A stretch of DNA of 64,000 bases from Lepidurus packardi. Its lineage: Eukaryota > Arthropoda > Branchiopoda > Notostraca > Triopsidae. Shown here piece by piece: positions 29,967 through 61,530 of this stretch. Below the pieces are notes generated by a model. It was given only the letters and a program-made list of their open reading frames with translations. It searched no databases and was not told the origin of the DNA. The stretch covers positions 13,268,001 through 13,332,000 of the forward strand of contig JAKZAN010000005.1 of the NCBI GenBank assembly GCA_023053545.1, read 5' to 3'. Numbering within the stretch: the first letter of the stretch is position 1; each line of letters begins with the position of its first letter. The position numbers and the translations under genes were made by a program.

Positions 29967-32900
29967 TCAGCTCTTTTGTACAGTGCATCGAAAGAGAATC
30001 CGTCTGAATCCTCGCCTGAAATCCTTATTGAAAATGGTGTAAATGACGGGATTGAGGGCGGAGTTGATGTAGCCCAACCAAAAGGCGGTGGCAAAGCCCC
30101 AAGGCTGTATACAATCGGGACACAAGGGCGACAGAATGTAGAGGAAGAAAAAAGGCAGCCAACACAGAATAAAAGCGCCCATGATGAGTCCCAAGATGAA
30201 AGTCGCCCGTTTCTCCCTTTTCCGAGCCAATCGACGACGTTCCCGAGCAGGATCTTGTTCCCTTACCGGTGGTTTACCCAAATCCACCATCTTAAAGGAG
30301 ATAAAAGAGACATGTATTTTTAGCGTTTTGATCCTATTTTTATGCTATTTTTGGTACGAGTGAGAAGCTCAGGTTCCCATGTACCTAATAATTAAGCCGT
30401 TTTGCGGGTCGTATAACTTCAAGAATTTTTAAAGCGCTTTAAAATTCGTAAAAAACTCCAGAGTTTTATAGTTATAGATTCTATGATTAGTAAAGTATAA
30501 CCAATAAAAAATGTAAGGCTGTGAGGCTTTTAGTTTTTGAGGAATCTTCACTTGACTTTGGAGGTTTTTTTTGCGTACTGCGTCACGCGTTGTGAGACAG
30601 TTATGCCATCTAGCGGAAGCAACTTAACGTACATGGGAAGAAGCCGTAGTATTTTTTTTAAATGAGTTTTAGACAGTATAGGTTTACTTGGCGCTTTGCT
30701 TTGGAAGATTTCTTGGACTGGTTTGTTGGTCGGCAGAACTTGAGTTTTAGAGGGCGAACCATGGTACATCGCATGATAGTGCCCGAATCGGAAGACGAAG
30801 GTTCCAACTCGCTCACTGCTTCCGTTTCTACACTGGGAGCGGTTCCTGGGGGCGTGGTTAGCTGCACGACGTTAGGCGAAGAGGCAACGCTCGAGGGCGC
30901 TGGGGTAGTGACGGAAATAAGGGCAGTTGGAAGCTGATGCGACTCCGCGCTCGCAGAAAGGGGCGGGAAGTGGTAATCGCCTTCGGGGCTACTGGGGTAG
31001 CTACTAGTCGAAAATTCCATTTCCGATCCGCTGGTCGTGACCCTTAAAGGAGTTTTCCGGTGCTGCCACCTCCTGGCGAAGATGTCGAGGCGCTTTTTGG
31101 TCAAAACTGTGATGGATTGTCGCCGATTCTTCTGATTCCCGTCCTCTATTTCAGTCATAACTACAGGAATCGACGCTATTTTGGGCGAAGGGACTGATTT
31201 CCCATTTTCTAACGGGTGCAAAAGAATATGGCTGCTTAAAATTACCTCGTGAGCTGCGTGAGTTTCCCGATTCGGGACTTTCACCTCACTTTCGTTACCA
31301 CAGTTCATATTACTGTCCAACTCACGCACTTGTCCGTCTGCCAACGGGAGCTTAGAATCGTTTTGATCAGTAGGATCACTTGCATCGGATCCTTCTGGCT
31401 TCACGGCAACATAGGCGTCGTCCTCATGTAAGGTCGCTAAAGGTTCTTTGAGGACATCAGGAGGAATGGACGCTCGACTAACTTCAGGAGTCACCGGGGA
31501 GGGCGCTAAGGAGAAAATAGGTAAAGGGGCCGGGCTAGGAGGCTTGGAATGCGAATAGGCGGCTACTAGGACGTTACTCGAAGCCTGGACCGGCTTTTTG
31601 CATACATTTTTCGGTGGTGCGTTGCGTTGTGACCGTCGACGAGCTTGCATTTCTAACGCGCGACGGGCGCGATTCCGCGTGGCGAAGTAGATCCGGATAT
31701 ACACCACAACCATGATGCAGGAAGGGATGTAGAACGATCCTAAGGCTGAGTACACCACGTAGCCAATATCTTTGCTCAACTGCAAAACATAACATGCATA
31801 GATTCATTAGGAATTTCTACTACATTTCTGCAGAATATCTTCCACAAAAAGTTGAGAATCCCACTCGCTACTAAAAATCTAAAAGAGGGTGACAACTAAA
31901 AAATAAAAACGATTGATTGATGGTGGTCTTTTGCTCACCTTCGAAGATGCCAAAAATGGCAAAAATTACTGGCACATTTCTAGCGATTTCTTAGAAAACG
32001 TTTGATAGCTTTAGAACGCGAGTGTGTGAATACAATGACGAACTAACTTTCCTCTACTGACAAGTAAAGAAATGTCACAGCTCATTGATTTCTCCCTTGT
32101 TTGCGTGAATTCCAGGAAAGGCAAAAATATATTTGTCTTTCTTTCTGCACCAAAGATCAGAATATCCAAATCACAATAAAGAAATAAGTCAAACATTTCT
32201 GCACTCTGAAGAAATATCGTTCCAGTCATGATTCCCTTCGCAGAAATATACAAATACAACCCAGCTTACAGATTGATAAAACATGGAACGAATTCCAGCT
32301 GTGTCTTTATTTATTTCCCTTTTGTTTGCTAATATCCCAGAGTACGGTGACTGTTGACGCTGCAGAAATTGAAAGAGGGGAAACGTTGTATGTATTGTGC
32401 ACATAGAACATCTCGCACGGGTAAACTCCCCTAACTTTTAATAAACCTGTCTATCGCTCTCCCCACGCGCCACCCGCTCACTCTTCCTTAAAAAGCAAAG
32501 GGGAAAACGCTTAGGGTATAGGAAATACGAGCCAACACCCCACCGTACCGCTCCTGAGAAATACGTGATCCTGCAGCTACAACGCAATTTCGGTGTACTG
32601 GGATAAATTCACGCATGACGCAACCCTAACCCACGTTAACATAACATCGCGTAACACGGCTCCAAGTGGTGTTCCGGCGTGAAATAGTGGCAGTATCCAA
32701 TTAAGCGTTTCATCTCCCGGTAACCCCCGCTTCCCTTGTTTGTTCATCTGCGGACGTATTTCTGCAGACCAATAACAATACCAGAAACCTTTGCTCAAAA
32801 TACAAGAACTTAGTTTTTGCCCGAATTCCCGTGCTAACCGTAATTAACTGCTTAGCTGACTCATTTTTGGCGGAACTCAGATTCTCGTAATTTGTCCTAT

Positions 32901-35900
32901 TCGGTGGCCGTCACGCAGTAATGCTAGTGTGAAGTTATATTGTTTTGGAAAGTTTGCGACGAACGGACTGCAGATTGTATAGCTAAGGGAAAAAGCGGAG
33001 GGAGAGGGGAAGTAATGTATATTCCTACCAAAATGAATATTAATGTGGTAGAATATGCGCGAATGTTGAAGTAATTTCTCCGCACTTCTCTGCAGATTTG
33101 GGCCGTAATAATTCTGCAGCTGACGTTGACGCTAACTCTTACTTGGAGTCCTTTTTAACCTTGTTAGCGGAAATTAGTAAAGGGGGAATTACACTGGGAA
33201 TTTGCTGTAATCCACTTGGGAAAAGCCCGGCGAAAGAAATATATACATTTCTGGGCGAATCACTTCTTGCTCGCATAAATATTTCTGCAGCTGCTGTCAT
33301 CTTAGATTAGTGCTGCAAGCGGGGGGAATCCCGTAAATGAAACGTCCCCTTACTCTTCAAATTTGACAAAAAAACTCCAGCAGCATTGGGATGAAACAAG
33401 AAAGGGGAAAAGACAAAAACGTTCTCGCTGGCAGAAATATAGCTGCATTACTGCCTCCAAAAATTCTTCTGGTTTAAAGTATTTTTCTTCTCATTTCCCA
33501 GTAATGAAGAGGTGAAACACGAGTTTAGGTGACTTATGAACCGTGCTTGACGGTAGAAGGTTATAACTATTGCTGCAGCGCCCCCTCGAAGTAATATTAC
33601 TGTCAACTATAAAAACTTAATATCTTTAACATTCCTTGAAAAGATTTTACATTTACCACCTTTTACAACAAACCTTGCACCTTCTACAACATTCTACAAC
33701 AAAAGTGTAGAATATTAAAAAGTGAATGATTTGACAAGTTGTAGATGGAAATTTTCATAGGGAAATATATTTTTGCCAAAAGAAATTAAATAATATTCCT
33801 CAAGTAATTGTGGCAAATTACTGTATAAAACTTAAACTTCCAGAAAATTCTGCTAAATTAAATACCGGTTTTCTTTGAAAATTAGGCAAAATTACAAAGC
33901 ACTACCAGCAAATGTATGATCAAGTTCCGCCTGTCAGGAATATTGCTTAGCCATTTTTCGCAGAAATGCTACTGCAGCTGGTATTACTGCAACAATATTC
34001 CTTTATTTCTTGGCTAAGGCCCTAAAACTCACCGAGATAAAAGTTTTTATCATTTATACTATCCTCTGTGCAAGGAAACACTCGAAGGAGAAGAAAATAA
34101 AAGGCCATATCATTGCTGCTAAGCGTCTCAAGACTCATTACTTCCTTCAGTCTAATTATATATTCCTTTAATCCTACCGTTTGATCTTCCAACACTGTTC
34201 TCATTTACAGTAATTGCACCAATTTCTCGCATTCGTATTTGGGAAACTACAGCTCAAGAGAACCCAATTTGTGATTAAGATTAACTTGCCAAAACTGCGA
34301 AGAAATACACGCCTAATACCGTTATTTCTTCCAGTCTTCGAAACTCCGTCAGTCTACTATGTCTTTCCAAGGGAAAACGGCCCCAGAATGAAGGACGAAA
34401 TGAAACTGAGCAAAGGAAGAAAAAACTTCGCAGTCACGGGACTCATCGAATTAGCAGCAATTACTGCCTACGCGCTTTACAAAGCTTTCCCCCTGTCACT
34501 TAACTGTTACAAGAGCTATGTCTGCGACCCAGTGAACCCATCCCATTTTTTACCATACCCAAAAGCCCCGCCAGCTGCTATCACATTACATTTGCATATT
34601 CTACGTTCTTGGGCCGGGAGGGCGTGGGGGGCAGTTGCCGGTACTGATTCCCGCCTGGTAGGTCATATATAACTTCTGACAGCTAAACGCAAAACATGCC
34701 GGCCAGTCATTGCTATCTAATCGATGTCCCGCCCACTCTTATTTCTTATGTTTCTCCCCCCCTCTTATCTGACAGGAAAGTATCGGCAAATTGAGCTTCT
34801 GGGCCCATAACTTATTTCTTCAACAGCTGTAACTCTTAGATACTCTCTTATTTCTGCTTTTTCCTCCTCCTTTTCTCCCCTCACGGGGTGATAACAACTC
34901 TAGAAAGTAAAAAGGGCCCCCAGTTCTTTTTTTTATTATATTAGTAATTCCATTTAGCCCAGTGCATTGCTGCAGCAATGAGAAATGTTCACAGACTTGG
35001 GCTGTCATACATCCGCCGTTCTTTGGCAAAAGAAACGAAAACTTTTTTGTTTTGTTTTTTATTTATTTATGGCTCATCCCCGAAGCTTCCCTTGCTCCGA
35101 TCGTGCTTCGGTTCACCAATTGCTTCGCCGTATTTCTGCTGAGCCAGAAATCAATTTCTTTACGAAAAAGGGATAATTTCTGTCCCAAACTTTACTTTTT
35201 AATTCGATAGGGATTATTTATTGTATTTTTTTTAATATATTGAAATTCAGATGAAAGTTGAAATGACTTGTAAACAAGTATCGATCAAGTTCGACAAAGG
35301 GATCGGCTACTCGTACTTTTCCTACCCCCCTTCTCACGCCCCACATAAAGGGGGGTGGGGCGTTAAGAGATACACATGCTTGGCCTTTTTTCCTCCCTTT
35401 TACAAGTTCCCAAAGTGCCTGAAGGTTTCCTTGCATAGTACTGGGATGCATTCGATATCTCTGATGCGTGAGAAGTGGTACACGTTTTATTTCTTCCAAG
35501 GGACCGCTTGGAATTTCTTCGCCTCTTTATTCTATTTCTTTTACTTCCAGCGTTCGCTCCACCCTTATCTCAAGAATGCTAGAGTAACTCCTAAACTGAA
35601 TAAAATTTGTAGGAAATTCAGCCAACAAATCTTGGTGCTTTTCTGCGTATTTCTTATTTAAAAGAAATTTAAAATTCAACTTCTAGTAAACTTTAAAACC
35701 GCGCGACTGTGATGTTCACGAGCTAATAATAATATTATTTCGAACAAATTGCATCAGCAAGTTAGTGTTTTTATTTAGAATTTCTGCAGTGTTACTTGCG
35801 GATTACTTCTATTAAAACAATCTTATAGACTTTTAAATAATTTGATTGGAAGAGGGTTTTTCAATAACTAGGTTTGGTAATTTCAAATTCTACTATATGA

Positions 35901-38900
35901 GACAAATTCTGTCAGACTGAAATACTAACATTTCTTTGAAAAGCTGCCATATTTCTGCCTTTCAAAAAAAGAAGTAAAGAAGTCCTTTTCGTGAGACATT
36001 TGTAGGAAGTTAAGCTATGGTTTTAATTGAACTCTGACGTTTTCAGGAATTGTAGTTAGGATTTAGTGCTCTAATAGCCCAGAATTCCCAGTATTACTGC
36101 TAGCACGGCAATAATGTTACCAGTATGTTTCGCTGCTGGCTACTGGGAGATAACACAGGCTATTGAGCTTCATTAGCTGCAGGTTCTTTAACCTGCTGGT
36201 TCCTTTTATTTCCAACCCCTCCCTTTCAAACAGAACACTCCTTTAATAATAAATGTCTGCTTTCTCTTTTAGGGTCTGCAGAAATAGTATCATACTATCT
36301 TTAGTGGGGAGAAAAAAACAGCCCATGAAAGACCAATACTGTTAGCCAAATGGCGCGAGTTTATGACGCGGTGCAAACGTGACGTCGTTAACGGTCTTTT
36401 TGTCGTATCAGAGGTCTTTGCAGATTGCAGTAATCATAGCATTTTCAGAAATATAGAAACATGCCCTGGTATAAGTCACGCTAAAAGCAAAAGTTGGCTT
36501 AGTTTGGGGTATGGTTCTTATGACTACTTGATGCGGGCACGGCAAGCGGAAGCAAGGGGAAAACTTACAGGCAATATATATATGTTTAATGGCTGCAGTC
36601 ATGTAGCTGCCTTAACAACCCACATTGCTTCATTTTCCAGGTTATCATCTTTTCAGAAGGGGCTAAATTATGTAAAGACCTTCTCTTCCTCTCCATCCCT
36701 CTCTCTGTCTCTCCGTCTTCAAAAGAAAGTTGGTAAGCCTCGAGTTTTAGTAATAATTCTTCCAACATTGCTGTAGCCAATTGCAGCAATTAACAGCAGA
36801 TAGTTGTTCATGCCCCAGACTTTGCATAGGTCGAGCTTTTAAGTGTTAAGCAAACTTGGGAGTCTCTGTCTCCACCGCGGTTCGCTTTGGAATGTAATTT
36901 CTGTCGGAATTCTGCGGAATCGGAGCGCCGCAATACAATTCGCATGCTGCCTACTCAAGAATCTCTCCTCTCATAACAAATTACCATACCATTTACAACG
37001 AACTTATTCCTTTTACGTAGACTGTGAGCTCCAAACTATCCTAGCCCCTTTGGTTGAGCAAGAATAAAACTGAAATATTTCTGTTAGCGAAGAGCGCCCA
37101 GAAATATTACGGCCAACCTAAAAAAGCAGGATTAGCCAAGTCAAAGCAATTCCGTTATTACTTATGCTAATGAATGCAACCACCCTCTTAAAAAAAGAAA
37201 CACAAAAAACAGACCGTCTACAACAGCTTTCTCGATTTCCAGCCTTGGAAGAAATAAAGAAATATGTATATATCTTCTGACTGAATCCAGCGGAGCAAAT
37301 GGAGAGCGACAGGCTGCCAGAGGAAAAAAAGGAAAGAGATTAGCCGGAAAACAAGCTTTCCACGCACCCGGACGTAAGCACCTATTAGACTTGTCAGTAC
37401 TTTGGGAAGACAGAAATATGACTGCAGTAATGTTGCCAGACACGCTATAATTCAAGATACATAACTTTTGGCGTTGGGAGAAAAAAAGGGAATTTAAATA
37501 GACGGTGAAGCTAGGAGACTCACGGTTTTGTACTATCAATGGGATTACGCCACATTTCTGCACGAATCACGCGGAGGGGATCGACGATTCTTATGCAACT
37601 AAAATTAATTTATCGGTACTTGTGTGACAAGACGGGAAAACATACAGAGTCAAGACTTAAGCTACAGCGTTTGGCTTGCTGCTCCAGTTGCCGATAAAAA
37701 TGGTGCAAGTCCGAATCGAATCGGGAAGCATGACAAAAATCGTTTGCCACGCTTCACTGACTTTCACATTTTCGACAACCCGCAGAAATTGGGTTGGGGG
37801 AAAGCATGAAGCATCCTGTCATACTACACCGCCTTGCTTTGCATTTATTTACCGTTCCCACCCGTCGCCTGCCTCTCAAGCTAGGAAGAAGTAGGAAAAA
37901 GTTGGTACTGGCAGCATTACTGCTTATTCTTCACGGCGCCGAATTTATGAGATCACTCGAACAAGTCCTTGCATTTCAATAAAAATTTTTCTTATTATAA
38001 AGAAGCCTCTTTGCGAGTTGCCGCACAAGAAAAGGAAGGAAAGTCAGAAACGATTTTGGCCTGGCTGCAGATCTTATGCAGTAATATTTTTTTCCCGTCA
38101 ATTCCCTTTCCGAAACCAGAGACTTTGGTTGGGATATTCCAATAGGGCGCGTCCTAAAAGATAGCTCAATGAAAAATAAAAGATAATCGTGTGAAACTTT
38201 TCCCCAGATATACGATCAGTAAGTAGACATGATTCGCAGTAATATTTCTTCTCCGATATATTTTCTGGATCTAGTACGTGCAAAAATAAATTTAAAAAAT
38301 GGAAAGATTGTAGAACCCATCAAATATTACTGCAATCATAATAGTAGGGAAGTTTCATTTCCGCAGCAAGAAGTGCTGACAGTTATATTTCTCCAGCAAT
38401 ATTATTACCCAAATAATATTCGCTAAACATGGGAAATAAAAGAAACTTCATAGGATCAGTTGAAAGGAATATTTCTGAAGTAATACTTCGAACGCGAATC
38501 TTTTGGTTCAGGTTTTAATTCCCCTAGAGATCTGAAACAGCGAAAGAATGCCAAAGACTGTGCGAACTTTCGGCGAGAAGTAATATTACTGGGAACATCT
38601 TGTAGGAATAGGGTTCTAGAGGGCAGTGTTGGGATAACAAGCTTCCTGAGGCCAAAGCCACTGATTCGATCCGGGAGGTTTTGAGGTCAGGTAGTAAAAG
38701 GGAGGAAAAAGTGGACCCCAAAAGGCGACCTCCTGTAGCTGGGGCTTCTTTTTTATTCTTTTCGTACCCTCCAGCTTTCTTATTACCAAACTGCAGCACG
38801 TTGGCAGTTCGCGCACTGGCTGCCGGGGCCTTGGTGTCCCAAAACAAAAATAAGAAAAGAAACCGAGACTCGTCCGCTCTCGGGAGGATTTCTGGGTAAT

Positions 38901-41900
38901 TGAATTAACCCACGAGACGAAAAACGAAACCCCAAACAGGTCCTCGTTGCAAAAAAAGGGAAAGAAAAGGAAGAAATACATTATCAGGAAGGGTGGCTAC
39001 CGCCCGCAAGCCCTGTGTAGCATAACATTACTGCAGATATATGACGAGCATTGAGAAAAGCATCCTGACTTAAGGAATGGGTTGCTGAAAGAAACAAAGA
39101 GATGGAAAAAACGAAGAAGAGCTCGTTTTGTTCTTTGCAGCGAAGCCATCCGGTATGTTTAAAATTTCTGCAGAAATAATCAGCGAATAAAGCCGCGCGC
39201 GTGCAGGGGCATTAAAATCCGGGGGAAATTGGCTTTTCAGCGTCGGCAAATCCTGTTCTTGTTTATCTGACCGACAGCAGACGTTGAAATTCCTGCTCCT
39301 GCTGCCTGCAGATATTGGCAGAAATAACTCAAGCTGAGTTATTGAGCTCCAATGCAAATTGTCTTCCTTGCCCATGTTAATTGGCAACCATCTCAACGGG
39401 CGGGTTGAATTCATAAAACTTACGCCTCGACCAGGCTGAGGGTGGTTGTTATTGCTCCACAACTGCCGCTACCAGCAGAACCAGCAGCAAACATTACTGC
39501 CACCGAAATTTTACCCACAATATTGGAACCATCAACGTTTGCTCAAGACCCATTCATGTCCAGTTATCGCTGTCCGGACATCCCTTCTCCCTTCGTTTTG
39601 CTCGCCGAGGAAGTGCGACGAGAATTTCTGCAGAAATATTGGAACAGTTGGTGGCGTTGTAAACCCGAGCGATGGCTTTTGATTTGGGGAGCTTTTCCCA
39701 GAAAAGACTTGAGGTTTTGGAACCTATTGTAGTCTTTGGCTTGTGCGTTCCGTTCCTGTTTTCTCTTTTGTATCTTGCCTGTCGTCGTCATTGTTTGCCA
39801 GTAACAATGGGGTTCTTTCTGCAGAAATATAACTGCATAGCAAAAGCGGTTCTTTTTCCTAGATACCTGTCATGTCAAGGAGAAAACAAGCTTTCTTAAA
39901 AGGGATCTTTTTTCTCTTTCCCCTCGAATACAAGTAAACAAGGATGACTGCGACTGAGACAGTAATGTCTGCGCTGCAACCCCGTGGCAGCAATAATCTC
40001 TCTTTCCCCTTTCTCAAGCTAAAATGCGAAAGAAAAAAAGGGAGAAAGAAACTGCTGTAAGTACTGTGGGTTGGCCGGGAGTAGTAAATATTGCTTCTAG
40101 CAAAATCGCAACCCAGAAGGTATAAAAAAGACGTGCTTAGTTTTGCAGGAATATTTCTGCTGTTGCCAATAAAATATGGCTGACGTTATTTGGGCCATAA
40201 ATACTCGATGTTTCGCGAAGAAGGCACTCTCATTTTTTCACTGACCAGAACTGGACCAGAATCTCCCGTAAATTATTTGCCAATACCGCTGCAGTAATAA
40301 AACAGCCTGGGATTTTTCGTAAGGCCAACACGAAACTTTAAGATTTGCAAATCAGCCCTATCTTTTCGGCTTTAAGCCAATCCCGAAGATATAATCCTGT
40401 ATTTCTTCCCACAGTATTATCGGCTTTCTTCAAACGACCAGTCTCAAAAGGAACACTGCTCGAAAATGAGGTCCTATTACGTATAACTATCTAGGTTCCT
40501 CGACACTTGCGTCTAATATAACGCCGGAGGAGGGTACAAAAAGAAATACTGTCTGTTTATCCTCCTCGCAGCCACGTATTGCTGCCTCCAGCAATTCTGT
40601 TCGGCTAAGCTTAGGCCTAAAAAGGAATCCTACTTTCCAAGTCCATTCCGTTCCCTTCTCGAGGCAGGCCGTTACCAAAGACCCAAACGAGCTTGGCTGT
40701 ACAAGTAATACAATTTCTGCCAGCAAACAGAAATACGCAGTAATGGTGCTGACGATCCCGGCTAAAAAAAGTCCAGCATACGTAATCGAAAAACCTTCTG
40801 GGCCAGACCACTACTTTTAAACGACCACATGGGGATTCAAACCATCTTATACCTTGAATCATCAAGATCAGAGTACCAGCAAAAGTACCAGCAAAGTTCT
40901 CGTTGAAGAAAGCTCCTGGAGAACAAAAGAGAGACAGAGAGCAAAAAGGAAAGAAAAGAGGCCAGAAAAAGTCCCTTGAAAATCTTGCTGTGCTTACGTT
41001 CACCGACTTTCTTTCACTTCCCTCCCACCACCCCCTCCTTTCTAACTCCCTCGTTCACGGCTTTTTGACCTGAATATTATCCTCGGAAGCCAAAAGGGAT
41101 GACACAATGATCAAAGACACAGAAAACAACAGGCTTCACGATAGCCCGCCCAACTGAATACAAAAGGCAGCACCTCCCATCCTTTCTGACTTGAATAGCT
41201 AATCAGTTTCAGACACCACCCTCACCCCCGCCCCCTGCAACAATACATAAATCCCCAGAACTGCTGCGCTTTTGTGCCTTAGATAATCTCGCGGCTTCCG
41301 TTCCAAATCTCTCTCCCTAAACAGATTCAAGTCCGCGTTTAATGCTGCAGAAATACGTTTGATCTCTCAAAATCCTACCCCAGAACACAGTTCCTTAAAA
41401 AGCTAAAAACCCTTGAGAAATAAAGATAGCGCTCGTTTCAGGCAGCTCTATCGGCAAAAAGGTTGCTCTTATTTTTTACTTGGAAAAGCACAGTACTGAT
41501 ACGGTGCCAGTACAAAGCTCGCAATATTGCTATGATTTTAGGCACGTGCATAAGATACATTCCGGTATAAATTCAACACAAATTCACGAAGAAATGTAAG
41601 ATATACTCGGAAGAAATAAGATATACTCGGAAGAAATAAGATAACAGAAAGAAATTACGCGACAATTTAAAAAAAAAATTCGCAAAAAAATCCCGAAGAT
41701 AAACTACATTTCGCAGATGCAAACGTGAAGCAGTTTCAAGAAACTTCTTCAAGAAATTTTTAGATATTCAAAAATTCTTCAAAAGCTACTGAAAAAATTC
41801 CTGAAAATTGGGGACGACATGTGACACGGACTCACCCCAAACTAGGAGGAGGAATAGCATTAGAAGATCTAATACAGAAATTTAGAGTTGTTACGCAGAA

Positions 41901-44900
41901 ACGTTAGAAGCGTTTGTCATAAGTTTTGAAGAAGACACTAGCTTAACAACGTAATTGGAGTCCCTTTTGCATATCAAGCATGTACACTTTTTGTACATTT
42001 GCAATTTAGTTTCGTATTTCTGGCAGAAATAGGAACTAAAGCTAGTATCCATTTCGCCTAACAGTTTCTTTAAACGTTCTGAAAAAGAAAACTCGAGTCT
42101 CGATCAGGAACTCGGAGAAATGTCACCATGTCATGGGGTATACAGAAGGGAATAAAAGGTAAGTAATAAAAAAATTAGCATAATCCAATTCCTGATCTTC
42201 GAATGTGACCTGGAGACAACATTTCCCGCTACCCTGCCTGCCGGAATAAGGAAGGAGATCTTGATTAATTTCATTGTAAACTGTACCTCTTCCGCCCAAC
42301 TCCCTGAACAACCCACTCATCGCTAGCTCCATAAAGAAAAAAATGTTGCTGTCTGACTCGCTTGCTGAACATTTCTAGCCAATGACTCAATGTCGCGCCC
42401 TCCCACACTTGAACAAAAGATCCACGTATGTGTTACTAATGACTTTCTACTTTTAATCAAACAACTTCCTCATTCCTTACTTTTTACCATTTGCACAACA
42501 TTGAAAGTCACAGATCAGCCTTATTATGCCCTATTTCTGCGTATTTCTGCCTACTTTTAGTAATAATCCTCTTAAAACCCCGTATTCCACTTCGACGCTC
42601 TACTCCTTTTTCTTACCTTTTCTGGTTTAGGAAGTAGACCAAAGGATTCGTGTACCCGACAGAAGGACGCCGGGCCCCGACAGAAGGACGCCAGTTCCAT
42701 AATCTTTGAAGGAACCAATAGAATTTCGCGTTCAAAAAGTCTCTGCTCATTGGATAAGCGCCAACGAAATTAGAATGGTCTTAAGCCGTATTAGCACTCC
42801 GGACCCCGTCAGAAGGACGCGTAACCTAACCTTGTGACGTACTTTGTCTTCTGCCGGGGCCCGGCGTCCATGTGTCGGGTTGTCTATTACCCGCCTCTTG
42901 GGTGCTTAATGTACTGCCCTTTTTCCACTATATTTCTAGTCAAATTTTCCCTTCTATAGCTGTCTTTTCTACCGCATTTCTTCCTGGCATCCTCAATAGG
43001 TAAAAATTCAATTTCAAAGGTATTATCCCCAAAGCTCGTAAGGGAAAACGTCATAGGGTGACGGGGTGGTCGAAATAAGTTAGGGTAGGGTAAAAAAAAA
43101 AAATACTCGGCCTACCTCAGAAAGCAATTGAGTTGTCAACACGAAGAAGAACGACGCTTTTACGTTCCGCCAAGCTTTCCTCGCACACACACTACACAAC
43201 AGCCCTTGCAGTTTTTCTCTCTTTCTCTGCGTCTATAGTTCATTTCTTCCAATTAAGGGGTATATAAAACGCTCTTAGGCCTCCAGGCTAAACTATTATT
43301 CCGGCCTGTATATTCGAGTCCCAAAAAAGTTCCTTAACCCGGCCGAAACTAGATCACTTAAAACAATTTCTGTCGCCCGAAGCACTACACAGGAATCTCT
43401 TGCCAAGAAAAGTTTCTTCATAAACCCAACAAAAACAAGAGCACGAATTTCTGTCAGCTTTATAGGGCACTCTTACCCATCTTTTCCTTGCCTGGCTAAA
43501 CCACTCTCCCTTTGAACATATTACTGCAAATCTGTCTCCATCACTAACGTCGTTATTTCTACGCAAAAAGAAACGCGAACAGATTTCTTACCCTTTATTT
43601 TTTCCCGAGTCCTCGAAAGGAAAACTACGGAATGATCGCCATCAGCAATTAATGCTTCCACGCCAAACAACGGCCAATAAATCTCGGCTAACTTCCCACA
43701 CCCCTTTTATCCCTCCTTTCAACCCTCTACCTCACCCTTCCCAGAAAAAAAGGAAAAAAGGGAAGAAAAGAACCGCCCTGGGTTAGTAATGCCAATGTTC
43801 TCGCTGTCAGGGTTTAGAATACCCTTACCCCAAAGGGAGTGGTGAATGTACAAAAAGGGAGGGTGAGGGTAAAAAGGGAGGATTTAAGATCGCCCTACAG
43901 TAACTTAGAGTTGGAGATTAGCTTGTCGCTGTATAGACCCCCGCCGTCTCGCCACTGACCGGACAAGTTCGAACATTTCAATCCTCCTTACCCCCCGTTA
44001 CCAGTCCATACCCCCTCCTCACCCCCAGCAGAGTGACTACTGGACAGTGGAAGATTGTGAGCACAGATCTCACGTGGTGAAGACAAACGGACTATAAAAT
44101 CGACAGGGGGGAATTGGAGCGGGGAGTCCAAGTCCAAGTCCCAGGAGAGGTTAGCCACTCCTCCAAAGCGTCCTTTTACCCACATGATAAAATATTACTG
44201 CCAGTTCTGTTGCTAACAAGTTAGCTTTTCCTGCTGAAAACGCGGCCTGGCATCTATTAAAGAGAATTCCCGGGAAATTATGGTAGTTAACACTCGTTTT
44301 ACTCGAGTTTATTCATTCAAGAAAGCAGAAATATTAAGGGCTGTAAAGAAATATGAAGAATTCTGAAGAAATAAGAAGACACTAGTCAGAAATAATGGGT
44401 TTGAGTACACTGAGTCGAAATCTGGCACACTTTAAGTGCCAGATTTCGATTCTAAGAGACTCAAATTGAGACTCTTTAAGCGATCGGAACGATCCTGAGC
44501 ACTATTTCTGCTTCCCGATAGAGTCGATTCGCGGAAATTCTTTTCCACTGCAAACAACCCGAAATGCTACGAAACGTTTCAGCCGATTCCATCAACTACC
44601 TTAAACAAGCCAAAAAAAGTCCCCTCAAGTGGTCTGCCCTACTGGCCGATCCCTTAACTGCCGCTCAAAGGGACAAGCAACAGAAGAAGAAACAGCATAG
44701 AAAAAATGGGAAAGAAATAGCCAAGCAGCAATTTGATTTGCTGCGTCAAAGTTAAAAGCACCGCGTCGCAGTGGCTGTCTTTAGGGGGCCTCAACTGCAA
44801 TCACGTTTGGGCCCAAAGGGGAGAAGCTGTACCAGCGAAAGAGTGAGCCCGAAAGAAATCTCAATGACTACAAAAAGCTGCAGATGAGAAGGATCGCTTT

Positions 44901-47900
44901 AGAACCCAAATTTCTTCCACCGCTTTCATTTCTCCCGATCTCTTTCCTTTTTTAAAAATTCTTAAAAAATGCGGTAAAAAAAGGAACAACGAATCGGTGA
45001 AAGAGACGTATGAAAATGTTCTAAATCCCTAGTAAAATGGGGCGACTGAAAATAGAAATTCCCACACTAATGCCCATCCGTCACGCAGACACACAAAAGA
45101 GAGGCACTTCAACGCCCCGGGGAAAAATATGGCCTTCCAAACAGAAACAGAGATATCGTCGCAAGAAAAAGAGAAAAGAGAGGCCATGGAACGAATAACA
45201 ACCTATCCTCATAGAAATAATAGCCATTCGGGTGTGAGTGTGTGTGTGCGACGATTGATAAAGCTGGGAGCAAGCTTCCCTGATCATTTTCATTAAAAGA
45301 CAACCCAAAGTCCTGATCGGCATTAAATATGCCCCTTAAGATGCCTGACGGCCTTCAGATAAGTTCCAAACTTGATCAAAATGAAGGGTGGAAAGTCACA
45401 CATCTCCCAGATTAATCTTATCGGAGATTAAAGAAAAACAAACTAGGGTTTCGTAACCTGCTTATCAATTTCTGCGTTACGATTTGCTGATTCAAGCGAC
45501 GATTTTACCAAATTGTGGAAATGTGTTGGCAGTTTCTCTTGACAGTAATGTTGGTATTAGAGTGCTAGAACTATTACAAGTGTAAAAAGTAACGCTTGTG
45601 TAACCATGAATTGAAAATCTAGGAGACAATGGTGGCCCATTTCTCAGAAATCCGTATAGTAATGTAGGGGGTATTTTTATACAAGAGACGCTAATATGAG
45701 ACATCAATTGGAAATTCGGGAAAATGATGTTGGTCCCGGAAGAACTACATGGATTACTGTAGAAATGACAGCAATAACGATTTATTGTACGGTTCCTAAA
45801 TGACCTAGACCTTAACTGCCCCCTCCTGGGAAGGACCAAGTACGAAGTATTGACTAACACGAAGTATTGTACGCAGGAGCGTGGCGCGTAACTAATGAAT
45901 GCTCCTATGTTTACCATTTCAGTGTTTTTTGTTTCTAATCTAAAGAAAACATGACCGGTCCATGTCATTTGTAAGCCGATACTTAGCGGAAGGAAAATCA
46001 CTAAAATCTTTTTCCTTTGTTGCTTCTTCCCATCCCTGAAGAACTAAGCCAGCAATCTTTGGCATACTTTAATTAGTATTCACCGCAGGCTACAGCATTG
46101 TTTCTCTCGCTGGGTTAACGACCGAGCTCTTCTCGACTTGTAACCACCCCTTTGAGAAGAAATGAATACCCCCGAGAACGAGCGACATCTCCACACAAAG
46201 TCATACCAAGCCCTGACTGCAGCAATTTCGAGGGGAATATTACATCTCCCGGAGAAATTATCTTTCAGCCAAGTTTACTTAACGTCCCAACGTTCTCATT
46301 CAACTCTGTTGGATCCCCCCTTTTAAACCTGCTCACTTGTGTCTACTCCCAACTTGCCCTCAAATGGCTGCAGCAAGTCAAGTCATAACTGCGTATACCT
46401 TAATCATAACTGCGTACTGTACCACCCCTTCAGTTCAGTCTAAAACTTTCCTTCTCAGCTCGTTCACGGTTAAGAATTCTGCATCTAATTCATTAAAGAT
46501 CGCCTTACTTTACTTATTAAAGATCACGCTACTTTATTCATCACCTTTACCCATTACTCTCCCCATTAACTCCCATATCTGCAGAAATAAGGAATATACC
46601 CCAACACACAACACCTCCCAAGCTTTATTAAACCTTTTCGCGGCCTCCGACCCAGGATTATGTACAACGGGGTACAGCGATAATAGAAACTAGGATGAGA
46701 AGAAGGTTAAAAGGGTGAGAAGAGGGTGGAAGGGTGGGAGAGGCAGCTTTTACAAGGAACAAGGCTCAGAAACAGGAGAGTCCCCATATAAAGTTGGAAG
46801 AACGTAAATTTGGCGACCTTGATCCCGTTGGATTGCCTTCAGCGAATTGCTTGGAGGGTAAAAAAGGGTATCCGAGGGTGGAAAGGGGTTGGCAAGCAGG
46901 CTGGCGATAAGCGAAACCGATGTCCTGTTCCCCACTCTTTTATCCCATTCAAAGTGCTTTGCAGGAAAGAGAGAAAAGGAAGGAAAAAGGGATTACAAGG
47001 CCGGAACGGTTGTGTGACTGTAACCAAAGCACCTCATTTACTGCCACGTCTATAAAGTACTGGCTGCTGAAGGCAATACCCGAGTTTTCCAGCTAACGCC
47101 TCCGTCCGGCATCCCTTTAAAAAAGAATTTACACCGGAAAAGAACGGATGTTGCGGAGAAGAAATCAAGGAAAAACATGGTTAACGTCTTCCGAAACGTT
47201 TGGGAAGAGAAAAGAAATTTCTGCGCTGCCGATGGCAATAATAGGGGTAATTTGTCCAGAAATATATACAATTGAGCTCGAATTCCCTTACTTCTCTTAA
47301 TTTCTCTTCATTTCATATCCATAACTTGTCCCTACTGAAAATTTTGTAGAAAATTTCGGCAAGCTATAGCATTATATCTGCAGTAATAGGAATATTACTG
47401 GGACAGACATATGGGAGTAATAAGCTTGTTACTTAAGGCGAAAAAGTCACTGACTTGATAGCATTTTTAACTTACACTACTTTGAATTTCTGCAGTCATT
47501 TTGGCAAGAACTTTGAATATCGACAGTTGGTAACAACCATACACAGAAGGAATATCCGTACTAAATCTTAGTTTGTGACCAAGGGATGGAACAATCTTCC
47601 GAACAAAGATCAGAAGAAGAGTAAAAGTCGGTTTTAAGTGAAGCGGATCCTTCGCGTTGTTTGCAGTAATGTTCAGAAATACGGTTAAAATCCCCAAATG
47701 GTGCCAGCTCTGGTGTGGGTGTCTCCTCGAAAAGAGCAAGATCTAACCAGGACTGACGGGCACCAGAATAACTTGGAGACAGATTTATTTCTTCGGCTCA
47801 GAATGCTTTCCGCGCGCAAATTTCTTTTAGCCTCGAACTAAGATGAAAATCTTCTAAAAGTACCGTCAAGTTTTGCGACAAGGAGTACCCTCTATTAAGC

Positions 47901-50900
47901 TCACGATAGTTAAAGTCCAAATCCAAGCAATTTCATTCGCCAAAATGTTGATGAAATTTCTTCCCAAGCTAAAGAAAGGCGAGCAATTATATAACATCTT
48001 CTTTAAAAAAAAATAAAAAAGAAAGAAACGCCCCTATGAACTTTAAAAGCAGGGAAAAGACTACCCGAAAATGTCAACTTAATTGCTTTCTCTTAAAAGG
48101 ATGGGTTTGAAGTAGGACTGCAGAACTGCAGCAATGCTAAAAATGTCTGTCCAATACGTGCTAAAAAGCATCCAGGAATTTCGTCCTCTCAGAAATTCCA
48201 TCTCACGGAAACTGGACCTTTCAGTTCTTTCTCTAACCATCGCCTTCCTCGAATTAAACCTCCGTCTCTTTCTCTACCCACTCACCCTCAAACAGCTTGG
48301 CAGTAATATGCCAGATGCCATAACACCTCCGTCCAAACCCCAGCAAGCCTTAATCCCCCCCTGTTCCCCAATCTTACATTGTTGTCGAGTCTTCTTTCCC
48401 TCGCTCTCTCACTCTTTCTCTCTCGCTTAACCCTTTTTCCTCCGCTGACTGGAGAAATGTCTTCAGCGTTCGAGAACCCCATTGTTCCCTTAACATGTAT
48501 GCAGTGGTGAACTGCCGGTCCCCAGGCAGGAATGGCACATGAAGGGGGCGAATGGAAAGTTGCTGGGTGTGAACACATGACACAGGGAGATCAATAAACG
48601 GAAAAAGCGGGTTGAGGTGGTTGTTTTGGTTGTATTCTAACGAAGAGACACGGTCATTACTGCATTATTACTGCTCCCTTTTCTCTACCTTCCTTCAACA
48701 CAAGACTCAATTAGGAGCCATAAGGACAGTGATGTTGGTTTTCAGAATGGGGAATCAGGAAGACAATTTGGATACGATCAAAAACTAACGACAGGAACCC
48801 AAAATCAGCATATGCAATGTGGAAATTATTCCTGCAACCTTTATTTCTGACTCACGAATGCATTTTTGGGTAGACTTCAAAGAAATGGTTAAGAAAAAAC
48901 CCAGCTCTGGATTCTATTTGTATAGGTTTCAGGACATTTCCTGATGATCTGTTTGGTCGGAAGAGATTTTCTTCCTATTTCTGCCCCCTTTCGAAGAAGC
49001 AACCGCCCAGAGGGTTAATTCGCCGTCTCTTTAGGGTACAAAAAAGAGGGCGAGCTATAGAAACTACTTGTATGTACACGACAAGGATCTTCTAGTGGTC
49101 AACCTCAGCTTCCTTGGGGTCTCTTAAAGTCAGGAAGGGGCAAAACAGTAATATTTCTGCGACGACCCGACCCGACCCGTAACTGCTTGGTCGCCATATC
49201 GGGGCTCTTAAACGAACCTTGACCGTCAGCAGAATAAATCCCCCCAGTGAATCCTAGGCACTTTAATTCCCCACACGACTACACACTACTGATCTTCCCG
49301 AAAACTCCTATCACCAAGCTAAAGAAGTGGCCCAAACGGGGGACGATTTTCCTTCGTTATTTCTGCGCTTAACAAAGCCTAATCTTTTTTCAAACCATAC
49401 CTGATATAGTGTTGCATAGAAATAGACCACTTTCGGCATAAATTAAAGAAAATTATCATGTTAAAAGGGAGTATTTCTCTCTCCCGTTCTGGAGGCTCAT
49501 TAGAATCCATTCCTATCTTCTATAAGCTGCTGGAAACTTTAGTTGGATCATTTCCACGGTGGCAGCTGAACTAATCAGACAATTACACCGCTCTAAAAAG
49601 CCTCCCCCTAACTTTTGTATACATAGCAGCTTGGCAACAGCGATAATGCTGCTTCAATCTTCCTTCTCTCACTTTCCCCCGTTCTTACTCGCTCTGCTTC
49701 TGCTTTTTTATGAGATTCCGGTACCGATGGCAAACAGACGCGGTAACTGTGGTAGCTGGTTGAGGACATTGATCTTTCCATCTTAATACCCTGAATAACA
49801 CAGGTGTTCCCCTATCTTGCCCCGAGACGCAGACTTTTTTTCTTTCTGATGTCCCATCTTCCTTTAACGCTTTCAGTCACCCACGGAACAATTAGCGTAG
49901 CACGAACGGTAACGACTCTAATAAGATTTGCCCAGTTTTAACGTCCCTCAACTCGGAAGCCGTTAAAGCGTAACACAAACCCCCAAAAAATCAAAAACAA
50001 ATATCATGACTGCCAGACATACACATAAATTCCTACGAATTGCAAAGTAAAGCTTTGTCAACATTTCTGCCAGCTTTTTTGAACTGGCAATTTCCGTTTG
50101 TGCTTGTTATCTCAGTGTTTGTTGGCATCCACCTCCCCCTACCGTTCTCCTAGCAAAGTGCAAACAAAACGGAAAGAAATAAACGAAAAAAAATCGGATC
50201 TATCTTTTCTCCCAGAAATAGAGACAACAGTCTTGCAAGAGAGCGGATGAAAACTCTTTTCTTATTTGCTATATATCTTTCGACTTTTCCATCCTCTTTT
50301 GAACCAGAATAAAAGAAAAGCAGCCCTCGAATCTCGAGAATGTCCTCTTCACACTCGCAGAAATACAAAAAATCTTCCGAAGATTTTGGATTCTTTTTTT
50401 TTAATTGCTGTTTATTTGGTTGCGTTTTCTTTAAAGCAACATAGCAATGCGCACAGAAGTGTAAAAGGATCGATATGTTGATTCCTTACATTTCTTTCTT
50501 TTCAACCCGCCGAAGGCTTTTGTCACACTGAGAAATAAGGGAAGGGGGGGTGTACAGAGACACAAAAAAAAATCCGAAGGGATTCGAGGAGGTCCCTATT
50601 TAACATTCCGAACTCATTTCCGGAAAGGTGTCAGTGCTTTAGGTAAATGACCATCCATCAGAATGTAACCCAAAATTCCCCTCTTCTTCTTTTTTTACTA
50701 TTCAGAAGGAAGAAATTCCTTTGAATGTTGGCGAGCTTGTTTTGGGGGCAGAAATTTCTTTCTCTTTTCCTCAAAAATAAAGAATTTACGCCGCGTTGAA
50801 AGAGAACTTCAAACAGAAAATTCAGAGGCCCAGGTGCCTTTTAAGGACGCGAAAGAATTAGAAAAAAAAATTCCGAAGAAATAAGAGACAGAAGTTTAGG

Positions 50901-53900
50901 AGGCTTGCGAGTCCCGGAAGCCCCAAATCGTCCGTTTTTAATGACTCGGGGCAAAGGCAACAACAACCTTGAATGGCAAAATGGCCCAAGGCGGTAGAGG
51001 GAGGTTAAAAGGCACATAAAAGGTCATAAACGACTTAAACCATGCCCCTTTTAGCCCCAAGATTCCCGGAAACTGCCTGAGTAATGAAGTTAAAACGCCT
51101 CTTTTAAAAAAAGGTTAAAACTGCAAAGCTTTGCAAATCATGTTTTGACATGCACGGCCGCTAGAGGGACACTTATGAACCCAGTTTGCCTTAAGCCACG
51201 CCCTTTTTCAGCCCTAAGTGCCCTATTTCGTGTCCTAAACTTGTCCAAACTCTTGTTCAAAGATGAAGGGAGTTGAAATTTATATTTTTACGTTTTCTTG
51301 TGGACCGTGGGAAGGATTAACAGGCTTAAACCACACCCGTTTGGAGTCAGAAGTGAAGATTTGCATCATTTGCACATTTTTGGAAAGTGGAAAGAATAAA
51401 TCTTGCCCTTCAAAGCACTGTTGGCTTCGACCCAGAAAGATATTATGAACGTACGAGGTATTAAACTAAAAACCAAAAAATGCCCGCTTTGGCCAGTAAT
51501 GCCATTCTGTTCCACAAATTGACTTGGAGATCAAAACCTTTGATTTTGAGGATAGAAATCGTGGAGATCAAAAGCTTGGGATGGCAATTGAGGGTTTTAT
51601 TTACTGGACCTAGGGACCGTAATACGAAATCCAGGAAGAAATAAAAGTTAGGCAGCTTTTTTCCTCAGAATCTCAAGGTTGCCCCTTAGGAATGTGAACG
51701 TGGACAAGATATGATCGAGCGTGAGGGAGGGGCTAGGGGGTGACCCACTCAAGCTTGACAACAGACGTCAACGACCCTATCATTTCTAGTTTCGAAGGTT
51801 TGTGTGGGACATTCTGGGAAGAAATGTGATTTGGCAGCCCTTCCCGAAAGAAATCCCCCTTTTCTTGCTTTTATTTCTCATTCCTTTCCTTTTACCAGTA
51901 GTCAAAACACCACCGGGCCAAAGCAGCAAAAGTCATAAAGTGAGGCAAGTGACACGGAAAGACGAGGAAGGGTCTTTTGTCTTCAACTAAAAGGTAAGAC
52001 TCCCAGATTCACAGCTTCTGATGACGTCATCGGTCATTTCTGGTAACAACCGCACGAGAGAACGAGAGTAAAAAACTACTTCTTCATGTTGTTGTTCCAA
52101 AATATATGAAAGATTTATTTGTTGTTCTTTCGACGGGTGGCAGAAAAGAGATGATGACGGGCCCAGACTCGCATTTCTGCCGGAAGAAGCGCATCAAGCG
52201 CAATGGAAGACTAGGTGAGATTTTTTTTTTTTGGGGGGGGGAGCGTACAGGCGAAAGTAGGGAAGCAGCTGTGGAACTGCGGCGGCAAGCGAAACCCTCA
52301 ATTGGAACGACAAAGCCACCTCCACCCCCAACCTCCAGACATCCATCAAAGACGACAGTCTGGTACCCAGGCAAGAGCTATTTCTGCGGAAATCCCTCAA
52401 GTCCAGCGCCACCAAAGGACGTTCATAAAAACGGAGGGGCGAGGCTTTGTTCTCGTCATAAACAAAAAGCTGAGCTCCGTGAACAGTAATTTCAGTGCCA
52501 GTCATGTCACAATTTCGACGACCCACTTGCTCACATATCTGCTTATTTGATACAAATTTCTCTTCAAGCAAATCGTTTTTCTAAGGAGGGTTCAATGGTT
52601 TGGCATGAACTCCCAAGTTGCTGTTTCAGAATCCTAGTTTTCCAAAGTCTTCTTTAAGGAAGAACGGAAGAAAATCCTTTTATGAATGTTTAACAAGTGT
52701 CAAAGTGAATAAGAACCCTTACCAGAAATCTCCATTAGCCATTCCTAGCACACATAAACATTCCATACACCATCCATCAGGTTGCCCTAAACGCAATACC
52801 CCGACAGTAAAGAATTCAATCGTCCCACCTGTTCCATATGCCTCGTAAATACCTTCTAATTCTCAATTTTTTTATCTGCTCTTAAATTCCTTCCGTAAAA
52901 CTGTCGATCTATAATAAAATACCAAAAGTACTGGATGCCAACCCACTTGACTCTAGAAACTATCCCATCTTCCCATCCCTCTTTACCATTCAAATCTCCC
53001 TTTCTTAACTCTTTAAATAATTCCAGACAATCATAATACTGAAGCTTACAAACAAAAAATACGTCCAGTAGAATCATCTCTAAATGACGTCCCACCATTA
53101 TACATGTCCTCAAATTTTCCCCCATGCTAATAACCCTATGTAATTCCCGAATCTTCATGTGCTGGATGACGTCCTACCAGCCTCTTGGCACTCGCTTTCC
53201 TCACCCAAAACGAAAAAATCTTCAAAAATAACTATTTAGCCTTTCCTTTTTTGGAGAAGAAATTACTAGTACTTTAAAAAGAAAAAAGTACGAGCCCTTC
53301 TTTGTCCAAAAAAGAAGAAGGGAATAGAAAAAAAGGATCAAATCACCTCACACGTGGGGAACTCGCCTTGAGGAATCTCTTTTTTCCATCCCAAGAGCGG
53401 CGGAATGGAGATGAGTCCGGCTAGGATCCAGACGACCGTAATCATGATGGCGACGCGGCTCGGCGTCCTCATCCGCAGGTATTCCACGGCGTGCGTGATG
53501 GACCAGTACCGGTCCAGACTGATGAGGCAAATGTTCATGATGGAGGAGGTGCAGAGCAGCACGTCCACGGCGGAATGGATGTCGCACCACCACTGACCAA
53601 ACGTCCAATAGCCCATCATCTCGTTCGCGAGCGAAAAGGGCATGATGATCAGGCCCAACAGGCTATCCGCCACCGCTAACGACGCGATGAACCAGTTCTG
53701 CAAGCCTTTCAGCGATTTCTCGGTCGCGATCGCGATGATCACCAAGATATTCCCGCCCACCATGATAATCATGATGATCGTAACAAAAAAAGAAGTCACA
53801 ATCAACCGCCAGAGCGTGTACCCACTCGGGTACATGACAGTGTCCCAATTCCAGCTGTCCGGCCACTCAAACGGAGTCGGATCGCAGCAATTGCGGACCC

Positions 53901-54015
53901 AGGCTTGAGAATCATTGCTGTCGGTAGGATGAGCGAGTTGGAACCCGCTTTCGTTCTCGTGGTTCGGAAAGGCGGACGAGTTGAGGGAGAAAGGGGAGGC
54001 GCTTGGGGCTCCCAT
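29967..54015 (-). CDS. Octalpha2R: alpha2-adrenergic-like octopamine receptor (biogenic amine GPCR)
   Basis: Three coding exons on the minus strand: 53347-54015 (residues 1-223), 30688-31779 (224-587) and 29967-30290 (588-694), all phase 0, giving 694 aa. Exon 1 carries TM1-TM4: [16 protein letters not shown] (D117), the amine-binding Asp in SAVDVLLC (D151), SLDRYWSI (DRY 168-170) and C222 in loop 2. Exon 2 gives TM5 with serines ([12 protein letters not shown]) and a ~330-residue intracellular loop 3. Exon 3 gives TM6 (CWLP at 630-633), TM7 (NPVIY at 667-671) and a short tail, as in Gi-coupled amine receptors. The segment [19 protein letters not shown] matches what I recall of insect alpha2-like octopamine receptors. 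The intron after exon 1 is 21,567 bases; the second is 397 bases. Untranslated exons may lie beyond 54,015. Confidence 0.9.
30605..30616 (-). promoter_or_regulatory. CTCF-like site in octopamine receptor intron 2
   Basis: GCCATCTAGCGG reads CCGCTAGATGGC on the minus strand, within the 397-base intron between coding exons 2 and 3. Confidence 0.4.
38614..38630 (+). promoter_or_regulatory. CTCF-like site in the giant intron
   Basis: TTCTAGAGGGCAGTGTT matches the YAGRGGGCRG core. The left flank is weaker. Confidence 0.33.
39164..39177. repeat. perfect palindromic copy of the intron motif
   Basis: ATTTCTGCAGAAAT, self-complementary over 14 bases. A second identical copy is at 39624-39637. At 39817-39828 a one-sided copy reads CTTTCTGCAGAAAT less its first pairing base. 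Confidence 0.8.
39624..39637. repeat. perfect palindromic copy of the intron motif
   Basis: ATTTCTGCAGAAAT again, 460 bases from the first copy, with different flanking sequence. The shared part is therefore the short site, not a longer repeat. Confidence 0.8.
41599..41638 (+). repeat. 20-base tandem repeat, two copies
   Basis: AGATATACTCGGAAGAAATA is present twice in perfect tandem. A further partial unit (AGATAACAGAAAGAAAT) follows. Confidence 0.8.
42655..42879. mobile_element. MITE-like element with ~32-base terminal inverted repeats
   Basis: About 225 bases. The left end begins CCCGACAGAAGGACGCCGGG, and the right end, read on the minus strand, begins CCCGACACATGGACGCCGGG. The two ends match at 29 of 32 positions. 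The left end carries a second adjacent CCCCGACAGAAGGACGCC, and a diverged internal copy (CCCCGTCAGAAGGACGCG) lies near 42806. There is no open frame, so it would be non-autonomous. No clear target-site duplication is visible, so the superfamily is not assigned. Confidence 0.55.
44416..44448. repeat. perfect hairpin, 13-bp stem
   Basis: Arm CGAAATCTGGCAC (44416-44428), a 7-base spacer, and the exact complement GTGCCAGATTTCG (44436-44448). It lies in the giant intron about 110 bases before a 63-codon open frame. Confidence 0.7.
44564..44755 (+). CDS. possible nested microprotein, 63 aa (weak)
   Basis: An ATG-initiated frame inside the giant octopamine receptor intron, on the opposite strand to the receptor. 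The product is basic and Lys/Gln-rich: it begins [20 protein letters not shown], has [19 protein letters not shown] in the middle and ends FDLLRQS. The composition is more protein-like than the other intronic frames and suggests a charged helix. I do not recognise it. No splice sites, promoter or polyadenylation signal support it clearly, and it may be chance. Confidence 0.2.
   Translation: MLRNVSADSINYLKQAKKSPLKWSALLADPLTAAQRDKQQKKKQHRKNGKEIAKQQFDLLRQS
51158..51172 (+). promoter_or_regulatory. CTCF-like site in the giant intron
   Basis: CCGCTAGAGGGACAC matches CCRCYAGRGGGCR except one base in the GGC. Confidence 0.35.
52221..52241 (+). repeat. homopolymer junction T12-G9
   Basis: Twelve T followed at once by nine G in the giant intron. 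Such junctions are prone to slippage, and the length may not be accurate in an assembly. Confidence 0.75.
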
Positions 54016-57000: not shown

Positions 57001-57044
57001 TTGCGGTTTCTGTAAAAAAACTCTAAAAATGCCCAAGTTGTATA

Positions 57045-61446: not shown

Positions 61447-61530
61447 AGCTATTTCTTCACTTTTTCTAGTATACTTTAATATTTCTGTGCAAAAGAAATA
61501 TGAAAATATACTAAAAGTGAAGAAATAGCT
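61447..61530. repeat. 84-base imperfect hairpin
   Basis: The left arm opens AGCTATTTCTTCACTTTT (61447-61464) and is matched exactly by 61513-61530 on the other strand. Pairing continues with small bulges through TAGTATA and TATTTCT to a loop of about 6 bases (GTGCAA). Total stem is about 35 bp. It could be a palindromic MITE, or a hairpin RNA precursor if transcribed. Confidence 0.6.

Follow-up and report, generated by a model that had tools for sequence, protein, structure and literature searches.

In the tadpole shrimp Lepidurus packardi, a 21.6-kb intron of an alpha2-adrenergic-like octopamine receptor gene, located between the exon for transmembrane segments (TM) 1-4 and that for TM5, is filled with copies of one short word, GCAGAAAT, and its single-letter variants. 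Judged from the DNA letters, we consider this intron to be a domain-scale field of putative sites at which a single, sequence-specific DNA-binding protein is recruited, with a probability of roughly 0.56. The intron lies within a stretch of 64,000 nucleotides, referred to here as the window (C4:13268001-13332000), of an assembly of 108.6 Mb in 344 contigs, where C1-C6 are chromosome-sized (10.7-14.0 Mb).

The word GCAGAAAT occurs 41 times in the intron (31780-53346), 8 times at 53347-64000 and 4 times at 1-31779, in agreement with the first-pass annotation of this DNA, which had reported about 41 exact copies in the intron and about 4 in the first 31.8 kb. Two of these 4 copies (at 17424 and 17547) reside in a short direct duplication (17400-17580, spacing 123 bp), where each copy retains one GCAGAAAT and one GCAGTAAT. 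The T variant, GCAGTAAT, which had also been noted, is found 22, 4 and 5 times in the same three regions, respectively, and GCAGCAAT is found 11, 4 and 2 times. These numbers are far above those expected by chance: the window contains 84 GCAGWAAT, compared to 5.15 ± 2.47 for 100 dinucleotide shuffles (maximum 14), and the intron contains 74 GCAG[ATC]AAT, compared to 4.2 ± 1.8 expected from a second-order Markov model. Among 630 CpG-free anagrams, GCAGAAAT ranks first in the intron (41 vs a mean of 0.95), while it is found 3 times (anagram mean 1.94) in 48 kb sampled systematically from the chromosomes. Such an excess of one word over both shuffled and composition-matched controls is characteristic of a homotypic cluster.

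The density of GCAGWAAT in the intron (63 in 21.5 kb, i.e., 2.9/kb) was compared to that in 16 samples of 3 kb taken systematically from C1-C6, where 6 copies were found in 48 kb (0.125/kb), and to the genome average of 0.133/kb (14480 in 108.56 Mb). An equal density in random DNA across the genome would have spoken against the earlier proposal, but the density of the intron is not that of random DNA. Two other regions of the window, the 7.0-kb gap between a neighboring receptor and the octopamine receptor gene (3 copies, 0.43/kb) and the mostly non-coding 14.75-21.6 kb (5 copies, 0.73/kb), are above the bulk value. Because both are far sparser than the intron, non-coding status alone is insufficient to account for the excess.

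The tolerance of the word was determined by scoring single-base substitutions of GCAGAAAT against a third-order expectation in the intron, in 118 kb of background and, after masking of tandem repeats, in 12 further dense loci. In the intron, the tolerated letters are G, C (A 4.8-fold), A, G, A/T/C, A, A and T, and A is preferred as the next base; at the fifth position A is found 10-fold, T 12-fold and C 8-fold over expectation, and G 3-fold on 4 copies. A closely matching tolerance was found in the 12 other dense loci (at the fifth base A, T and C accepted and G least; at the second C over A), while in the background the accepted words are merely 1.2-1.7-fold over expectation, which argues for one recognition specificity. 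This consistent degenerate profile at independent loci, i.e., the intron and 12 loci picked for palindromes or motif arrays, is also a property of homotypic clusters. The unit site is G[C/A]AG[A/T/C]AAT(A); the word itself stands as originally described, but more letters are tolerated than claimed (C or A as the second, C also as the fifth, and A favored after the final T). A position-weight expectation-maximization model of the word drifted to purine composition and was discarded.

A faint mirror half is seen beside the word (C and T immediately before it and A at -6), which yields a dyad, ATTWCTGCAGWAAT, with a shared CTGCAG core. Genome-wide, ATTTCTGCAGAAAT is found 59 times vs 1 for the reversed control and ATTTCTGCAGTAAT 64 times vs 1, with 64/64 on C1-C6. 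The dense loci are biased in dyad frequency, having been picked for palindromes or motif arrays; the intron is unbiased in this respect. Apart from the dyad partner, the bases within 80 bp of 263 sites show no strong signal at any fixed distance; weak deviations at offsets -13, +9, +10 and +14 (chi-square 17-21, 3 degrees of freedom, 263 sites) are partly expected from paired sites. The intron holds the following dyads and runs:

39164..39177, no strand: palindromic pair ATTTCTGCAGAAAT
39624..39637, no strand: palindromic pair ATTTCTGCAGAAAT
34966..34979, no strand: palindromic pair ATTGCTGCAGCAAT
38578..38591, no strand: tail-to-tail pair AAGTAATATTACTG, with a second one at 33589
44325..44393, plus strand: four same-strand [CA]AG[ATC]AAT sites in a run, spacing 20, 20 and 21 bp
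42533..42550, minus strand: two GCAGAAAT on the same strand, 10 bp apart

Same-strand pairs are over-represented at 20-22 bp. Flanks of 17 pairs separated by 10-11 or 20-22 bp were identical at 1-9 of 16 positions for 16 pairs and at 14 of 16 for one, which is a 20-bp tandem repeat at 41.6 kb. Genome-wide, the 21-bp spacing yields 32 matches (~25 once arrays are collapsed by eye) and the 16-bp spacing 24 matches (~11 after the same treatment). A period scan of same-strand distances in the 12 dense loci gave no single clear period (9.2, 11.8 and 10.3 alike).

The sites in the intron do not belong to a recognizable repeat family. Positions 38000-41000, which contain 17 sites, match only themselves in the genome in a search that skips very common words, and the densest 3 kb of the intron contains 19 sites. 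Comparison of the intron with itself and with the loci L001-L051 (blastn, E 1e-4) revealed a single small repeat with inverted ends at ~42642-42880, and only two short tandem runs with ~20-bp units are present; no sequence common to the copies beyond the word was found in the intron. The first-pass annotation had claimed that the flanks differ from copy to copy, i.e., that this is not an ordinary transposon family, and these results bear it out: no longer common repeat was found behind the copies. The small repeat at 42642-42880 is likely a miniature inverted-repeat transposable element, with 33-bp inverted arms that are 91% alike and an 80% identical 81-bp relative in another locus (L036). 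The sites could instead be what is left of an ancient mobile or satellite family in which the word was present many times, e.g., as subterminal transposase-binding repeats, and which has decayed until only the word is recognizable. The abundance of the word in tandem arrays (see below) and the occurrence of units in both direct and inverted orientation are consistent with such an origin, which is nevertheless unlikely: the flanks in the intron cannot be aligned, no island structure is seen at 250 bp to 2 kb, and the loss of everything but the word would itself require constraint.

The layout of the field is best described in relation to the gene. The intron borders are exact and follow the GT-AG rule (donor GAG/GTGATT, acceptor TTTTGCAG/TTG). 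When joined, the exons match alpha-2 adrenergic and octopamine receptors of insects in protein comparison; the alpha2-adrenergic-like octopamine receptor of Drosophila melanogaster is among the matches, with 58% across 44% of the query. All three exons match 7tm_1; by these sequence matches the host is an alpha2-adrenergic-like octopamine receptor gene. The main features are as follows:

31780..53346, minus strand: intron between the TM1-4 exon and the TM5 exon, with 74 GCAG[ATC]AAT and 191 [CA]AG[ATC]AAT sites
53347..54015, minus strand: coding part of the exon from the first in-frame ATG (predicted start codon) to TM4; 7tm_1 E=4.3e-41
30658..31779, minus strand: following exon, for TM5 and the third intracellular loop, with an approximate 3' limit; 7tm_1 E=3.3e-5, below the curated cut-off
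29967..30344, minus strand: terminal coding exon, TM6-TM7 and stop, 5' limit approximate; 7tm_1 E=2.2e-16
54016..64000, no strand: upstream part of the motif field, 12 GCAGWAAT in 9.95 kb counted from 54049 (1.2/kb), continuing to ~74000 in locus L009

A single-exon neuropeptide receptor is found nearby (21621-22979, plus strand), for which the named matches listed are from arthropods and are called prolactin-releasing-peptide or sNPF receptors. Within the window, no match was obtained with Rfam at gathering thresholds and no tRNA with ARAGORN.

Over 124 contiguous kb, the field begins abruptly at the splice acceptor of exon 2 (31780), such that its left edge is the exon boundary, is densest at 32-40 kb, declines gradually through exon 1 and fades at ~74 kb, with a further small cluster at ~96-102 kb. 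The intronic location that had been reported is correct, but the field is not confined to the intron; it extends beyond exon 1 at lower density. Within the intron, the scatter of GCAG[ATC]AAT is near-Poisson (variance/mean 0.77-1.04 for bins of 250 bp to 2 kb), and the two strands carry 33 and 41 copies, i.e., both strands are used, as stated earlier, and without bias. An RNA-level signal in a long intron had been put forward as an alternative to a very large homotypic cluster for one protein. The intronic location and the start at a splice acceptor fit such a signal, e.g., sites involved in splicing or bound by an RNA-binding protein, but the absence of strand bias, the dyad arrangement, the continuation of the field upstream of the first coding exon and the presence of the word in tandem arrays do not, which leaves this alternative with almost no credibility; the cluster remains the best reading.

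Contrary to what had been implied, the octopamine receptor intron is not singular. Of 13 loci of 10 kb picked for palindromes or motif arrays (L015-L027), 11 contain 2.0-4.5 GCAGWAAT/kb; the remaining two contain 1.5/kb (L022) and 0.3/kb (L023), and the latter was left out of the 12 dense loci referred to above. Separate dense loci are found in pairs on C1 (L022 and L024), C3 (L019 and L027) and C5 (L020 and L021). A Pfam check of 10 open reading frames selected by eye at dense loci identified a ligand-gated channel (L015), an innexin (L025), a leucine-rich repeat (LRR) protein (L024), the PRT6 C-terminus (L016), a 7tm_7 chemoreceptor above (L018) and below (L017) the cut-off and, below the cut-off, a chitin-binding domain (L009); no family was assigned for L019 (K2P-like by eye), L020 and L021.

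The word is also present in 12 of the 17 tandem arrays (period at least 60) of these 13 loci. Examples of the units are 307 and 203 bp (L015), 154/309 bp (L019), 279 bp (L020) and 302 bp (L024); 9 of the 12 word-bearing arrays have periods of 142-154 or 279-309 bp and the others of 69, 203 and 353 bp. No pair of the 12 units shares more than 27 bp (E 1e-3). Many arrays of differing sequence in L015-L026 have periods of ~140-160 bp or double that length, close to the nucleosome repeat. Between copies, word columns differ at 24/1300 positions (1.85%) vs 333/7837 (4.25%) for the other columns, and only 48 of 10000 circular shifts gave a value as low (null mean 0.0369, P 0.005); word columns are less variable in 9 and more variable in 3 of the 12 arrays. 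Because word columns vary less than other columns, the word tends to persist while the remainder of the unit drifts. This comparison is the closest approach to a functional test, and it is derived from the arrays, not from the intron.

The tandem arrays, together with a concentration of sites on C6, are the reason why a role in chromosome structure (centromere, heterochromatin or meiotic pairing) is kept as the main rival. In this case, the word would be the target of an architectural protein in satellites and in regions poor in genes; the intron would be one such stretch, unrelated to the control of its gene. The array periods, the low variation of the word in arrays of different sequence and the concentration at C6:9.0-10.04 Mb are in line with this explanation, as is the observation that none of 76 motif loci has an RRM match within 20 kb (null 3.0). 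Yet the intron contains just two short tandem runs, its dense 3 kb have no second copy, the field edge matches an exon boundary, and motif loci are numerous on each chromosome (after merging, 15 on C1, 6 on C2, 16 on C3, 10 on C4, 13 on C5 and 17 on C6). We therefore regard a structural role as improbable, even if it is stronger than the other rivals. The region C6:9.00-10.04 Mb, which has the largest concentration of palindromes and paired motifs seen in the genome, also contains 7tm_7 chemoreceptor, ligand-gated channel and G protein-coupled receptor (GPCR) genes and several tandem arrays; it might be a specialized part of the chromosome, e.g., a centromere or a sex-linked segment.

The gene neighborhood was analyzed for 76 of the 77 merged motif loci, i.e., without the window's own field; same-array positions were thinned by hand and merged at 5 kb, and 50 of the 59 palindromes, among the matches listed, were entered. 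The gene lists do not include small-contig matches and some secondary exon matches near a typed one, and one list consists of the matches listed out of 155. A 7tm_1 match is found within 50 kb of 18/76 loci (null 7.3, P 0.004) and within 10 kb of 6/76 (null 1.7, P 0.018); a ligand-gated channel is found within 5 kb of 2/76 (null 0.3, P 0.04). RRM genes are not enriched within 50 kb (4/76, null 7.3) or within 20 kb. This GPCR proximity fits a role in regulating neural and sensory genes; it also fits gene-poor chromatin, in which genes of this kind tend to be located.

These data suggest a model in which one candidate protein would recognize G[C/A]AG[A/T/C]AAT(A) in units that stand singly, as dyads with the CTGCAG core or as same-strand pairs separated by about two helical turns; because units are found in all three forms, the protein may bind as a monomer, with neighboring molecules cooperating side by side. 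The many redundant sites are spread evenly between exon 2 and the upstream region and would bring this protein to the entire non-coding part of the gene, where it would set a chromatin state or a long-range contact for the locus, rather than define a single compact enhancer. Protein binding of the word, domain-scale action and a purpose in gene control are what we infer, the domain scale because the spread is even and the edge sharp. As to the effect, which may be activating, silencing or architectural, we lean toward control of the gene domain because the edge of the field is the exon edge of the gene and because of the association with GPCR genes.

A number of observations weaken this model. 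The GPCR association is weaker at 20 kb (7/76, null 3.1, P 0.06) and 5 kb (3/76, null 1.0, P 0.08), ligand-gated channels are found within 50 kb of 4/76 loci (null 2.4, P 0.26), the 12 proximity comparisons (three families at four distances) are uncorrected, and the association could reflect gene-poor, long-intron DNA. The wider [CA]AG[ATC]AAT is less evenly spread (variance/mean 1.02-1.48), and an even spread is in itself unlike that of compact enhancers. In the arrays, two of nine scrambled control words vary as little as the motif does (2/151 and 1/55; the nine pooled 47/985). The 10-bp spacing is not clearly favored genome-wide (38 matches, ~14 independent, 18 in one minisatellite run), and the phase test, for which phases were picked after looking, shows a modest preference (a ratio of 1.70 with P 0.004 for the intron, and of 1.25 with P 0.013 elsewhere). 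Considering these values together with the ~25 and ~11 independent matches at 21 and 16 bp, a preference for two helical turns is likely but modest.

A broader formulation, which we offer tentatively, is that one dedicated notostracan protein uses dense site fields as a sequence-encoded chromatin-domain mark, which arose independently in single-copy introns and unrelated satellites, is kept by selection and defines large domains enriched in receptor genes. If true, the locus would be a clear natural example of a chromatin domain that is encoded, within unique sequence, by a short word repeated redundantly scores of times; domain-scale recruitment would be directly testable with one consensus oligonucleotide, and tadpole shrimps would have a candidate regulatory word. 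Among the titles listed in literature searches, there was no genome-wide motif study of these animals.

Other observations concern mitochondrial and microbial sequences in the assembly. Several mitochondrial COX1 copies with TGA codons lie in nuclear DNA, on C1, C2, C4, C5 and C6, a number of them at C4:0.79-1.54 Mb, and the C6 copy is accompanied by ND2- and COX2-like frames (by eye). The COX2 of a mitochondrial pseudogene on C6 shares 95% identity with that of Lepidurus apus apus, 93% with L. apus lubbocki and L. arcticus, and 89-92% with Triops, as expected for a notostracan and most likely a Lepidurus. Among the small contigs C52, C214, C43 and C100, the first three have open, bacterial-looking COX1 frames, and one contig has 25% GC where sampled; these four are possibly microbial DNA.

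The word was also compared to known motifs by means of their canonical words. Those of Gfi1/Senseless, STAT, HSF and C/EBP are all within one standard deviation of the Markov expectation in the intron, and those of Su(H), GAGA, Zelda and Maf factors are at expectation; TGACAG (15 vs 8.5 ± 3.2) and the paired-type homeodomain dyad (3 vs 1.0 ± 1.2) are somewhat above it. Full-text literature searches gave no occurrence of GCAGAAATA, occurrences of TTTCTGCAGAAA that, by titles and the beginnings of abstracts, are not about motifs, and, for six 8-9-mers as whole words, only occurrences irrelevant by title; within these limits, the word was not found named as a motif.

Three known systems resemble the field as dispersed or regional DNA features, and each departs from it in a feature that was tested. 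Periodic An/Tn Clusters (PATCs), i.e., phased A/T runs, in Caenorhabditis elegans introns, which make up 6-10% of the genome and are linked to resistance to germline silencing, are also a DNA-level feature spread through introns, but without a specific word such as that found here (PMC7725773). A/T runs are not enriched in the intron: AAAAAAAA/TTTTTTTT is found 24 times in its 21.6 kb, while the left 31.8 kb has 54. In nematodes, the Ruby motif of piRNA loci, with a GTTTC core, is likewise short and is either scattered through the introns of active genes or located in megabase clusters (PMC6436959). Mini-promoters of this type for dispersed small RNAs would explain a dispersed, intronic word on both strands with differing flanks. 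They are, however, a very unlikely explanation: the word is another one, the Ruby octamer, CTGTTTCA, is at chance in the intron (2 observed, 1.6 expected), no strong base is found at a fixed downstream distance, and dyads and paired sites are not expected. The pairing-centre motifs of C. elegans, bound by dedicated HIM-8/ZIM zinc fingers, are likewise enriched in chromosomal regions (PMC8455136). Here, several dense loci are found per chromosome, e.g., two each on C1, C3 and C5.

The closest likeness is to homotypic clusters of transcription factor sites, where otherwise unique non-coding DNA near a gene contains one degenerate site many times over, on both strands. The usual length of known clusters ranges from hundreds of bases to a few kb. 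In contrast, the field described here covers 21.6 kb evenly, and it recurs at other places in the genome as well as in tandem arrays.

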